From positions 58,252-122,251 of the forward strand of contig NW_023365713.1 in NCBI RefSeq assembly GCF_000003815.2: 64,000 bases of DNA, given 5' to 3'. This DNA is from Branchiostoma floridae (lineage: Eukaryota; Chordata; Leptocardii; Amphioxiformes; Branchiostomatidae). The notes under the pieces were generated by a model that worked only from the letters and a program-made list of their open reading frames with translations, was not told the DNA's origin and ran no database searches. The first letter of the stretch is position 1; every line of letters starts with the position of its first letter. Positions 3,005 through 63,616 of the stretch are shown one piece after another. The position numbers were made by a program, and so were the translations under genes.

Positions 3005-4288
3005 ATGCCCGGTACCGCCATGAAGGGTAAACAGAGCAAGAAGGTAAGAAATGAAATGTTCTTAAACATTCGTAATTAGGTCATTGGTTTTAGTCAGTTC
3101 CAGGTGCTCTTGATATCTATATTTTTGCGTTTATATCAAATCAACTAGAATAAGCAGTAACTCTAATATTCCAAGTAAAAATTATTTTGTGTCAAGTCTT
3201 GAAATACTTAAGTACTAGGTATTTACCCTAGTATCTGCGTAAATGATTACATTACATTATGATTACACTACATTAGCTTGATACATCATAAGCAATAGTT
3301 TTTGTGTAATTAAGAAATTTTTGTGGATTACTGCTTTTTTTCCATGGCAAATTTCATTTGTATTGTCTTTGTCCGAAGGGCTAGCTTACAGGCTCACCTG
3401 GCAGCCCTGGCTGTGTGGCGTGTGCGCTGAACAGCCAAACCCATAAAAATGTAAACAAGTGATTTTGAAAAAGCTAACGTTTGCCCTTTATAGTGCTTGT
3501 GACATGAACCCCCCCCCCCTGTAGCAAATTTGGCACCAAATGCATAAATGACGAACATTTGGATGCATAAAACAGCGTCATATTTTGTACATGAACACAA
3601 AACACTTTCAGTTCATTAGTACACAACTTGTACGTTCGAAGTCATCTAAAAAAGGCCCCCCCTCTCCCTATGTTAAACGGGGTGACAGACCGCCACAGTT
3701 TCACAGAAAGCAGACCTAAACTCGTGCACTCTTGAAAATACGAAAATCTGGCCGGTTTTGTTCAATGCCAGCTTCTGTTGTAGGCACTGAAAGAAAGTAG
3801 AATAATACCAATTGATTTGTTTGAGTTCAACTAAAATGGATTTATTTACTTTATCATCATCATCATAATTATCATTACACTTTATAGCCAGCTTTATTCA
3901 TTTACATATTACAGGTTCAATATTGTCATAACATTTCACACACACACTACAAGACCAGTGGAGATATGAAGTCGTGGAACTCTCTATTCGGGCTGGGCAT
4001 TATTTGTGACATGTCTGAAGCAACCCCCCCCCCCCTCTCCACGTGGCAAATATTTTTTTTTAAATGCCACCTATCGCGTAAATGATGAGCATTTGAAAGC
4101 AGAAAACAACATCACATTTCATACATAAACCCCAAACGCCCTCAGGTGGGCAAACGTAAAAAAATAACCATACGCACAACTTACAGCCAGTATCATGTAG
4201 ATACTTATAAAACTAGCTTCATTCTTTCCTTCCCAGGTGTTTTTGGCAGTTTTCGTTCTTTTGATGACACTGCAAGAAACGTTCGGAG
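3005..4288 (+). CDS. Gene 1 start and signal peptide (two exons)
   Basis: ATG at 3005 begins a short basic stretch (exon to 3043, donor GTAAGA). Exon 4237-4288, preceded by CTTTCCTTCCCAG, continues with the hydrophobic core [17 protein letters not shown]. Together they read as a signal peptide with a basic n-region. An acceptor at 2988 (TTGACAG) would join it to the non-coding first exon. An alternative start is the internal ATG at 3020. Confidence 0.6.
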
Positions 4289-61100: not shown

Positions 61101-63616
61101 CTGATTTGCATAATTAGTATTACATTGTATAAGTCATCACTCATTCTATCTACATACTGAAAATCCTGATGATCCGTTTACACGTTCTCGAGTTATCCTC
61201 GTCCAAAGTGTCTGTAGTTCCCAAAAAGCCGCTAGGGGGACCAAACTCACAGCAGTTACTCTCTGTTCCAAGGGCTATCTACCACTCAAAAATCATGACC
61301 ACAACATGTCCAGAACACGAAGTGTCAAAATTAAAAGTTTTGCTGCAGTGCCTTAGGCAGCCACTAGGGTGCCCATTATCGAACTTGACCTTCGTTTTCC
61401 TAACCCCCATCCACCTAACAAATATAATCAGGATCCATTCAAGGGTTCTCGAGTTATCTTGCATACAGACAAACGCACTTACATACAAATCCCGCTACAG
61501 CACCGTAGGTAAGAGCCAGGTAAACCATTTTCGCACTTGACCTTCCTCTCCAAAACCGCTACACACCTACCAAGTTTCGTGAAAATCGCCCAGCTAGATT
61601 TTGACTTATGCTGCCCAAAACAAACCGCAAAAAACATACCAAGCTCGCTGCAGTACCGTAGGAAAACGCCAGGTAAACTGTTTTCAAACTTGGCATTCCT
61701 TTCAACAACCGCTACACACCTACCAAAAATCACAAAGTTCCATCCACAATTTCTGGAGTTATTTGCTGTTGACCTACATACAGACCCAAGTCAGCAATCT
61801 CATACTCTTCTTGGCGAAGAGAATGATTATAAACTGAAACGTTGAAGGTTATACTACCATCAAATAAGCATACCTGAACTCTCCGGAAGAGATCTTGTCC
61901 TGAATCTCGAATGAAAGGTCTCCTAGAAGGTACATCAGGTCAGTCTGATCCCCTGCAGTAACCTGGTCAGGTGGCGAGTTGCTGACGGCGACCACATCAA
62001 ACATCACGACGAAACCAGCGCCAGATCGGACGTTTGTGGCGGCCGATGAAGAGCGAACAGACTCGCCGCAGGCGACGTTGATGTTCGTGATGTTGCACGT
62101 TCCTGACCCCGAGGGCGCTGCTGCCCCGAGGGTGTCAAAAATGCGGTTGAACATCAGTATGATGTCAGCAATGTTGCTCTGACAGTCACCGTCGTAGTAG
62201 TAGTCAACTTGATTTGTCATCTGAGACATCCAGGCCAAACGTTTCCCTGAAACATATGCGAGCCTAGATATGTAGATGTTCCGTTACAGCTGTTCGTCAA
62301 AAGGGTCTGTTAATTTGTTATAACAATTCTTCATACTAACAGTTCTTCATATGTGTTGCTTCCTAACATGATTTAACCTACAGTTTGGGTGACTAAGTTT
62401 GGCAGGCCACCGGGTGCTGTGTTAGAATGAAATCAAGTTTACCCTCTAATCTCTGAATGCTTTGACATGTCTTGGTAATGAAACTTACTAGAGCAGTCCG
62501 GCCATGGTGCATCTTCAGGCAGCTCTTCAGCGTCACAGATTGACCCATGCACACCGACATTGAGCAGATGCCACTGGCCCTCCGCGTCACAGCTGTAACT
62601 TTGCGCAGGTTGGCAGTAGAAGTCATGTTGGGCGTTACAGGCGACAGTGCAGAATCGGCCGCCGTTGGAAAAATCAGCGCACGTTGCCAAGCCGTTCTTA
62701 GGCGGTGCGAAGTCCTCACTGCATGGAGCTGTGTAAATTAATATTCAACATTTGAAATTAATATTAACATTTGAACATCTCAGGTGTAGTCAGTATTTTG
62801 GCAATTTTTATGTCCTTGTAATTGATTTCAGCAGATAGAACACCACCTACTTCAGCTTTACGTCTGAAATTTGTGTGATAAATTACTTACTCTCGGATAG
62901 CATAGAGCTGGTGGTCAAATAGGAGAGACTAAGAATGGAAATATATAAACTTTCTTACCGACTTCACAGTCATCTCCCTTGAATCCACTTGGACATTCGC
63001 AAGTGTAGTTTCCACTTCCATCATGGCAGGTTGCCCCATTCTCACAAGGGTCGGATCGGCAGGCATCAGCATCTAGAGAAGTAGAGTTGAAAAACTTAGT
63101 ATTACCAAATAAATCATATGACTTTTCGAAAATATAACAGCTACATATGATATGGCTCTTATAATAGATATTGGATAAATTTCATGGCCTATCTTGCCAA
63201 CATACATAGGACATCATTTCTTTTTCATTTGTAATATTTCTAAACCATGCGCCATTTTGCTGTACCACCACCACCGGACATGCTAGGGCAAAACCATAAC
63301 GGTTTAGGGGGTGCTGGTACTCCCTGAGCGTTATGCCCCTCTAGGGGCTTTGCTCAGCATCACATCCTGTATGTAGCCTCGTAGTACGACCCATTGTACC
63401 TTGTGCGATTGTTGAGCAATAAATTCATTCATCCATTCATACAAGATTAAGAAGAAAAGAATAATTCAGTTTCACACAGGGACATACCGACACAGGAGAA
63501 GCCATCAGCTCCCAGTTCAAACCCATCTCTACAACCGCAGCGGTAGCTCCCAGTCATGTCTGTACAGATGTGATCACACGGGCCTCTTCCGGCGTTATCC
63601 AGGCACTCATCAACGT
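57996..63616 (-). CDS. Gene 4 (5' end outside window): EGF/Sushi/GCC2/TSP3/CBM14 mosaic protein (11 coding exons seen)
   Basis: Exons in transcript order are 63616-63488, 63072-62959, 62728-62489, 62246-61874, 60373-60252, 60134-59970, 59857-59793, 59590-59480, 59232-59125, 58896-58734 and 58171-57996. They total 1766 nt, entering in phase 1 and giving 587 residues to the stop. They encode two EGFs, Sushi, linker, GCC2/GCC3, thrombospondin block and CBM14. By comparison with genes 1-3 a 138-nt EGF exon and the head domain should lie beyond 64000; its identity is unknown. Sushi and linker are lineage B, like gene 2. The 1.5-kb intron between the linker exons carries a tandem repeat. Confidence 0.9.
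58172..58733 (-). other. Gene 4 last coding intron
   Basis: A ~560-bp AT-rich intron; nothing recognisable. Confidence 0.5.
58734..59857 (-). CDS. Gene 4 thrombospondin block (four exons)
   Basis: Exons in transcript order are 59857-59793, 59590-59480, 59232-59125 and 58896-58734. They encode [46 protein letters not shown], and type 3 repeats [29 protein letters not shown] and [20 protein letters not shown]. Phases as in the other genes. Confidence 0.93.
59709..59772. repeat. Hairpin in a gene 4 intron
   Basis: CAGATTGCATGCATTTTAAT (59712-59731) is followed by a short loop and then ATTAAGATGCATGCAACAAT with CTG (to about 59768), the reverse complement apart from a mismatch and a small bulge. 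About 26 bp of stem with a ~8-nt loop. Confidence 0.75.
59970..60134 (-). CDS. Gene 4 GCC2/GCC3 exon
   Basis: Encodes [31 protein letters not shown] and [18 protein letters not shown]; 165 nt, phase 1-1. Confidence 0.93.
60252..62246 (-). CDS. Gene 4 SVEP1-like linker domain (two exons, lineage B)
   Basis: Exons 62246-61874 (phase 1 to 2) and 60373-60252 (phase 2 to 1). It reads [20 protein letters not shown], with the extra cysteine [15 protein letters not shown], then [20 protein letters not shown], and [16 protein letters not shown]. It is closest to gene 2. Confidence 0.9.
60773..61795 (+). repeat. ~150-bp tandem/dispersed repeat in a gene 4 intron
   Basis: Units start GCTGCAGTACC(T/G)TAGG near 60774, 61343, 61493 and 61648 and share ACC(T/A)ACCAA, a GAGTTAT motif and ACATACAGAC. 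A partial copy lies near 61160-61240 (CTCGAGTTATC). No coding role is apparent. Confidence 0.75.
62489..62728 (-). CDS. Gene 4 shared Sushi exon (lineage B)
   Basis: 240 nt, phase 1-1, from [17 protein letters not shown] to [11 protein letters not shown]. It is 12-15 nt longer than its paralogues because of an insertion around [11 protein letters not shown]. Confidence 0.92.
62959..63616 (-). CDS. Gene 4 EGF exons (last two of the shared trio)
   Basis: Exon 63616-63488 encodes [20 protein letters not shown] and exon 63072-62959 encodes [20 protein letters not shown]. Both are phase 1-1, 129 and 114 nt, as in the other genes. Confidence 0.93.
63240..63445 (+). mobile_element. LINE/SINE-like 3' tail
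   Basis: A GC-richer block ends in TTGAGCAATAAATTCATTCATCC, the AATAAA plus short-repeat tail typical of CR1/L2-type 3' ends. It contains a small inverted pair AGCGTTATGCCCC/AGGGGCTTTGCT. Element family not identified. Confidence 0.5.

Follow-up and report, generated by a model that had tools for sequence, protein, structure and literature searches.

A lancelet gene family ending in a chitin-binding CBM14 exon, probably derived from the thrombospondin superfamily

From which protein family could a gene have arisen that joins EGF-like domains and thrombospondin type 3 repeats to a chitin-binding end? This question is raised by a stretch of 64,000 nucleotides from Branchiostoma floridae (assembly GCF_000003815.2, contig NW_023365713.1, positions 58,252 to 122,251 of the forward strand), hereafter the window, whose four genes share the order EGFs, an eight-cysteine Sushi, a linker, a GCC2/GCC3 domain (GCC2 below), a thrombospondin EGF, type 3 repeats and CBM14. 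The sequence-only reading of the window had described a four-gene cluster of SVEP1-like chimeras. On balance, the comparisons presented here favour another placement: the cluster probably consists of derived thrombospondin-superfamily genes rather than SVEP1 members, in which the C-terminal lectin domain (TSP_C) was exchanged for CBM14, thereby providing what would be a tether to chitin.

Exon chains, domains and family size

The searched genome comprises 513.4 Mb in 431 contigs, among them those labelled C155, C10, C180, C4, C175 and C11, with the window corresponding to C155:58252-122251, and exon families were located in it by tblastn with exon peptides. All gene models and their exon chains are predictions from genomic sequence alone. 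Genes 1 and 2 lie on the plus strand, and genes 3 and 4 on the minus strand. Gene 1 is predicted to run from an ATG at position 3005 in its first exon to a stop at 14561 (910 aa), while position 63616 is the first base of the first visible EGF exon of gene 4. Since the end of C155 coincides with the window end, gene 4 lacks its 5' end, with two EGF exons visible and the rest of its 5' part beyond the contig. The EGF, Sushi and GCC2 exons have splice phases 1-1, the linker exons 1-2 and 2-1, the thrombospondin EGF exons 1-0 and 0-0, the type 3 exons 0-0 and 0-1, and the CBM14 exon starts in phase 1 and ends at the stop. Splice sites were taken from one listing made without phase choice and from a second model picker that imposed phase and GT/AG. 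The phase-free listing recovered family-phase sites for most exons of the four window genes; the gene 4 Sushi donor, the gene 4 GCC2 acceptor and the gene 2 lectin donor (GTCAGT) were absent from it and were found by the constrained picker. The Sushi-to-CBM14 chain with its phases fits all eight modelled genes of the family, the spliced models contain no internal stops, and 115 of 115 junctions in the eight models are GT/AG, as the picker demanded, with one junction in gC, a gene on C10, bypassing an EGF exon that bears a stop. The tRNA and Rfam scans gave no matches. The common exon order claimed for the four genes is hence borne out by tblastn order, compatible phases and stop-free models; the count of four holds for the window and fails as the size of the family, since C155 holds six such genes.

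Using the gene 1 linker peptide, 26 genome matches were obtained at E<=10: eight strong ones (six on C155, two on C10), seven of middle rank (E 1.9e-15 to 5.3e-11), two partial ones with a stop on C180, and nine weak ones (E 0.02-7), of which two, on C175 and at C11:10757023, were opened. A composite CBM14 query gave 17 matches, 11 of them at E<=1.1e-21, and these close exons correspond to the eight modelled genes, two further C10 genes at 11.95 and 12.63 Mb and one C180 copy. The family thus has at least ten copies, six on C155 and four on C10. The C10 genes at 11.95 and 12.63 Mb show GCC2, thrombospondin EGF, type 3 and CBM14 exons in succession, and type 3 exons precede CBM14 on the same strand at 10 of the 11 close loci.

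Whole-protein Pfam scans covered genes 1-3, and gene 4 was scanned by single exon. EGF and TSP_3 were matched in all three proteins, Ephrin_rec_like (the GCC2/GCC3 model) in genes 1 and 3 but not in gene 2, and Lectin_C above its cut-off in genes 2 and 3. CBM_14 was unlisted in these three scans, though it matches when the exon is scanned alone (39.7 bits in gene 1 and 37.9 in gene 4, cut-off 22.1), and therefore whole-protein scans can overlook short domains. Single exons of gene 1 reach 49.0 bits for Ephrin_rec_like and 65.0 bits for TSP_3, the type 3 repeats find matches in COMP (3.7e-57) and thrombospondin-2 (1.6e-49), and the six cysteines of CBM14 are retained in seven of the eight modelled genes. 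The eight-cysteine Sushi exon gave no Pfam match at E<=1 in either of two versions, which was counted against this part of the description; it is labelled Sushi because it aligns with relatives, and of these one reaches 18.0 bits where the cut-off is 20.7. The linker belongs to no Pfam family, and its PDB profile search gave insignificant matches to cGAS only (E>=0.38). Of the sequence-only reading, calcium-binding EGF and type 3 repeats, a C-terminal CBM14 (matched by Pfam in genes 1 and 4), exon shuffling of phase-1 modules and a secreted product are accordingly supported.

A feature that had gone unnoticed in that reading is that the heads differ between cluster genes, as gene 1 starts with PLAT-like exons and a Sushi, and genes 2 and 3 with C-type lectin exons (the Pfam tests covered PLAT in gene 1 and Lectin_C in genes 2 and 3). 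On the same contig, gA and gB, two relatives of gene 1 located upstream of it, have in common with gene 1 a signal exon and PLAT-like exons before the Sushi exon; three PLAT exons are spliced in gene 1 and gB, and the third was not found in gA. Genes 2, 3 and gC have a C-type lectin start, each with one candidate signal exon upstream, and their lectin heads bear an EPN motif, the second site being FDD, WND and WDD, respectively. EPN is usual for mannose-type sugar binding.

Thrombospondin sister genes and the CBM14 junction

The evidence that carries the thrombospondin placement comes from the more distant relatives of the linker. All seven middle-ranking linker genes have TSP_3 and then TSP_C matches downstream, in order and on the same strand. 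The 42 TSP_C matches in the genome were grouped by us into 12 gene loci and an orphan exon, five of the loci being without a linker match. As these seven linker genes combine type 3 repeats with TSP_C, the pairing of Sushi-linker-GCC2 with type 3 repeats predates CBM14, and hence the new element is CBM14 replacing TSP_C. None of the eight modelled CBM14 genes has a TSP_C match, and the sole TSP_C match on C155 is the orphan exon, which lies on the strand opposite to genes 3 and 4. Behind TSP_C in two sister genes, inspection by eye over about 3 kb revealed no cysteine-rich exon.

The junction can be located using the sister gene on C4, which consists of EGFs, Sushi, linker, GCC2, thrombospondin EGF, several type 3 exons (with an unread stretch) and TSP_C. 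In this gene, the one sister gene inspected for the purpose, the second type 3 exon has a phase-0 start and a phase-1 end, which are also the phases of the exon preceding CBM14 in the cluster. The intron between type 3 and CBM14 measures 250-685 bases in the modelled genes, which leaves little space for a separate gene start. A tree of the first linker exon and GCC2 from 17 genes, rooted on the C175 gene and made without the partial C180 copies or the C10 genes at 11.95 and 12.63 Mb, recovered a CBM14 clade (98.9/99), a TSP_C clade (96.9/99) and a joint branch (82/82). The linker is a single open frame in all seven TSP_C genes and in the C11 gene, and is split by a phase-2 intron in all eight CBM14 genes; because the split occurs only in the CBM14 clade, its intron is probably derived. 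The direction from TSP_C to CBM14 is suggested by this intron and by TSP_C being the common end of thrombospondins.

The ancestor would have belonged to the thrombospondin superfamily and carried, in this order, EGFs, Sushi, linker, GCC2, thrombospondin EGF, type 3 and TSP_C. A CBM14 terminal exon would have been captured downstream of the second type 3 block, at the existing phase-1 donor, with the loss of all further type 3 and TSP_C exons, for which exon homology and phase give support and the direction is the one suggested above. Duplication to at least ten copies would have followed, with alternative N-termini (PLAT and Sushi, or C-type lectin) being gained. The cluster genes are under constraint: dN/dS lies between 0.15 and 0.35 in 28 of 28 gene pairs (496-501 codons), and in a per-exon comparison of seven genes, omitting gC and the short first thrombospondin EGF exon, ten exon families gave 0.16-0.33, with CBM14 at 0.16.

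Several observations weigh against the proposed derivation and its functional extension. The CBM14 and TSP_C clades are sisters, and the tree alone is therefore silent on the ancestral end. A donor gene for CBM14 was not found in the genome, the best match from outside the family being 42% identical. For the C10 genes at 11.95 and 12.63 Mb, whose upstream sequence is incomplete, the search gave no linker, and of their last type 3 exon only the second half is present; the family CBM14 exon at C180:99757 has no type 3 exons and lies 5 kb behind a truncated linker. A stop interrupts the fourth EGF exon of gC, and the CBM14 end of this gene is shifted, so that it may be decaying or mis-assembled. 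As to the heads, the candidate signal exons of genes 2, 3 and gC were picked by their hydrophobicity in a screen run without a chance control, and the second site of the gene 2 lectin is FDD rather than WND, due to which sugar binding may be lost there.

Rival readings, known systems and function

Lancelet genomes have been a matter of dispute in this respect, since a high rate of domain shuffling has been argued for (PMC4284660) and against (PMC4967905), and domain novelties have been ascribed to prediction errors (PMC4967905). The CBM14 exons could accordingly belong to neighbouring genes, and models drawn from the genome together with one unattached family CBM14 exon on C180 would fit such an artefact; however, the same-strand order of type 3 and CBM14 in 10 of 11 close loci, the short intron with matching phase in eight modelled genes, and a CBM14 exon as constrained as the rest of the gene make this explanation highly improbable. 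A better case, still an unlikely one, can be made for an expanded SVEP1/Polydom-like matrix family that chanced to gain type 3 repeats and CBM14. The Sushi-linker-GCC2 block is also found in an SVEP1-like gene on C175 (C175:128660-129226; Sushi, linker, GCC2 and a second GCC2-like unit read by eye) and in a gene on C11 (C11:10756963-10757508; a weak HYR-like domain with 16.4 of 21.7 bits, Sushi-like, linker, GCC2 and EGF), and the block is therefore a real and older module. In Nematostella, a core of EGF, Sushi, HYR and ephrin-type domains is called Polydom-like, according to PMC12549020. The likeness of the cluster to SVEP1/Polydom is confined to this block, the comparison being with the SVEP1-like gene of the same genome and not with a named SVEP1 sequence. 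The vWFA, HYR, pentraxin and sushi tail of SVEP1 were not found in the whole-protein scan of genes 1-3 (a scan that also missed CBM_14), the cluster genes run on into thrombospondin exons, and the nearest linker relatives outside the family are of thrombospondin type in seven of seven cases. The SVEP1 link made in the sequence-only reading therefore survives for the block and is given up for the protein as a whole, whose backbone is of thrombospondin type. The linker itself represents an unnamed conserved domain common to SVEP1-like and thrombospondin-like genes.

The thrombospondin placement is consistent with EGF-like domains being followed by type 3 repeats homologous to those of COMP and TSP-2; the differences are that the cluster has CBM14 instead of TSP_C, retains only the first type 3 motifs, and carries Sushi, linker and GCC2 upstream. 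Thrombospondin groups (canonical, mega-, sushi- and poriferan-TSP) are set by the C-terminal region in PMC6526912, and no group in the available part of that source shows the domain order of the cluster. The N-terminal LRRs and central cadherins of mega-TSP were not found in genes 1-3 by the scan that overlooked CBM_14, the exons being otherwise accounted for; sushi-TSP has at least three tandem sushi domains and a single EGF, and genes 1-3 instead have one or two separated Sushi-like domains and five to nine EGF exons. With peritrophins and other CBM14 proteins the cluster shares a six-cysteine CBM14 above the Pfam cut-off, but bears a single one on a long multidomain stalk. More than 250 chitin-binding domain frames are reported for amphioxus, of which random picks retrieve chitinase-like gene models (PMC2632668). 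No description of the cluster architecture was found among the matches listed, which comprised titles and abstract openings outside subscription journals and annotation databases.

Closest in layout are the variable region-containing chitin-binding proteins (VCBPs) of amphioxus and Ciona, described in PMC2632668 and PMC6109156 as secreted, with a recognition-type N-terminus and a C-terminal CBM14. They have two Ig-V domains as against the C-type lectin or PLAT head and the thrombospondin/EGF stalk of the cluster, and the whole-protein scan, which overlooked CBM_14, gave no Ig match in genes 1-3. In Ciona, VCBP-C attaches to chitin beads via CBM14 and tethers bacteria to them, and the gut of B. 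floridae is lined by chitinous membranes (PMC6109156). By analogy, the product would be a secreted, disulphide-rich, calcium-stiffened rod, with EGF and type 3 repeats forming a stiff stalk, CBM14 holding chitin at the C-terminal end and a lectin or PLAT head being presented at the opposite end. Bound to the chitinous gut lining, such a rod would hold microbes, food glycans or other matrix proteins in place there; alternatively, it would recognise chitin of foreign origin. Its role would be parallel to that of VCBPs, with a thrombospondin as the starting material. The pattern-recognition or gut-lining role proposed in the sequence-only reading becomes more plausible given the C-type lectin heads with EPN and the chitinous gut membranes.

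A rival that differs in function only holds that these are plain extracellular-matrix proteins without an immune role, cell-adhesive and anchored by CBM14 to chitin or to a different glycan. This is a considerable possibility, if short of an even one, as EGF, GCC2 and type 3 repeats are modules typical of the matrix, and thrombospondins and SVEP1 are matrix proteins (PMC6526912, PMC12549020); alternative lectin and PLAT heads and tandem expansion would nevertheless be more usual in recognition or barrier proteins. The furthest-reaching proposal, a thrombospondin branch without its defining C-terminal domain, rebuilt by one phase-1 exon capture into chitin-tethered, lectin-headed barrier proteins, is tentative and somewhat unlikely. 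If true, VCBP-like gut immunity would have had an origin separate from Ig domains, in which the chitin anchor is fixed and the head, either PLAT-Sushi or C-type lectin, can be exchanged. Type 3 repeats leading into TSP_C are the defining mark of thrombospondins, and an expanded family with this end swapped for a chitin-binding exon, with TSP_C-keeping sister genes in the same genome and an identified junction exon, would provide a clear case of domain replacement in a lancelet, where many claimed novelties are doubted as annotation errors (PMC4967905), and, for the chitinous barrier in the gut of basal chordates, a set of candidate genes open to testing.

Exon coordinates and minor observations

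In gene 1 (plus strand), the ATG and signal exons at 3005-3043 and 4237-4288 are followed by PLAT-like exons at 5045-5195, 7014-7113 and 7376-7463 (PLAT 18.7 bits, below the cut-off of 23) and an N-terminal Sushi exon at 7752-7931 (Pfam Sushi 19.5 bits, below the cut-off of 20.7). EGF exons lie at 8815-8931, 9152-9268, 9613-9750, 10010-10138 and 10268-10381, the second being a tandem copy (window 8685-9295; DNA 95% identical over 274 aligned bases, peptide identical). The eight-cysteine Sushi-like exon (10724-10948), the linker exons (11308-11680, 11832-11953), the GCC2 exon (12077-12241), the thrombospondin-type EGF exons (12348-12412, 12641-12751), the type 3 exons (13066-13173, 13589-13751) and the CBM14 terminal exon with the stop (14386-14561) complete the chain.

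Gene 2 (plus strand) has a candidate signal exon at 23688-23739, C-type lectin exons at 24458-24669 and 25276-25453 (Lectin_C 3.8e-13), and nine EGF exons spanning 26065-30913 with starts at 26065, 26623, 27573, 28224, 29092, 29339, 30154, 30530 and 30800. This array has apparently grown by repeated duplication of exon units (window 27168-29515), and an exon at 27358-27429 is truncated. Further exons are Sushi-like (31217-31444), linker (31857-32226, 32915-33036), GCC2 (33310-33474), thrombospondin EGF (33596-33660, 34231-34341), type 3 repeats (34624-34731, 34943-35105) and terminal CBM14 (35356-35531). Gene 3 (minus strand) has a candidate signal exon at 47668-47722, C-type lectin exons at 46479-46699 and 46111-46285 (Lectin_C 1.8e-21), five EGF exons within 43993-45787, and then Sushi-like (43552-43776), linker (42771-43134, 42418-42539), GCC2 (42113-42277), thrombospondin EGF (41864-41928, 41536-41646), type 3 (40894-41001, 40544-40706) and CBM14 (39683-39858) exons. 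The visible part of gene 4 (minus strand) consists of EGF exons at 63488-63616 and 62959-63072, and of Sushi-like (62489-62728), linker (61874-62246, 60252-60373), GCC2 (59970-60134), thrombospondin EGF (59793-59857, 59480-59590), type 3 (59125-59232, 58734-58896) and CBM14 (57996-58171) exons.

The orphan TSP_C exon lies between genes 3 and 4 at 52498-52660 on the plus strand (TSP_C 61.6 bits). It was considered as a relic of the lost end of the cluster and rejected, because the exon was copied recently, sharing 96% identity over 163 bases with C180:49777-49939 and 99% over 139 bases with C10:633912. Its placement inside a SINE/LINE chimera found no support, as its flanks had no other match in a search that skips very common words. 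Another TSP_C exon is weakly matched, in antisense, by a stop-bearing sequence in an intron of gene 2 (E 0.001). At three places (C10:371617-371992, C180:21513-21885 and C180:49979-50341), each immediately upstream of the last TSP_C exon of a sister gene, about 44 bases from the beginning of that exon are repeated, mostly in steps of 83 bases. Diverged tandem repeats with a period of about 160 bp occupy positions 18754-19687 of the window, and similar sequence appears again at about 50-52 kb.

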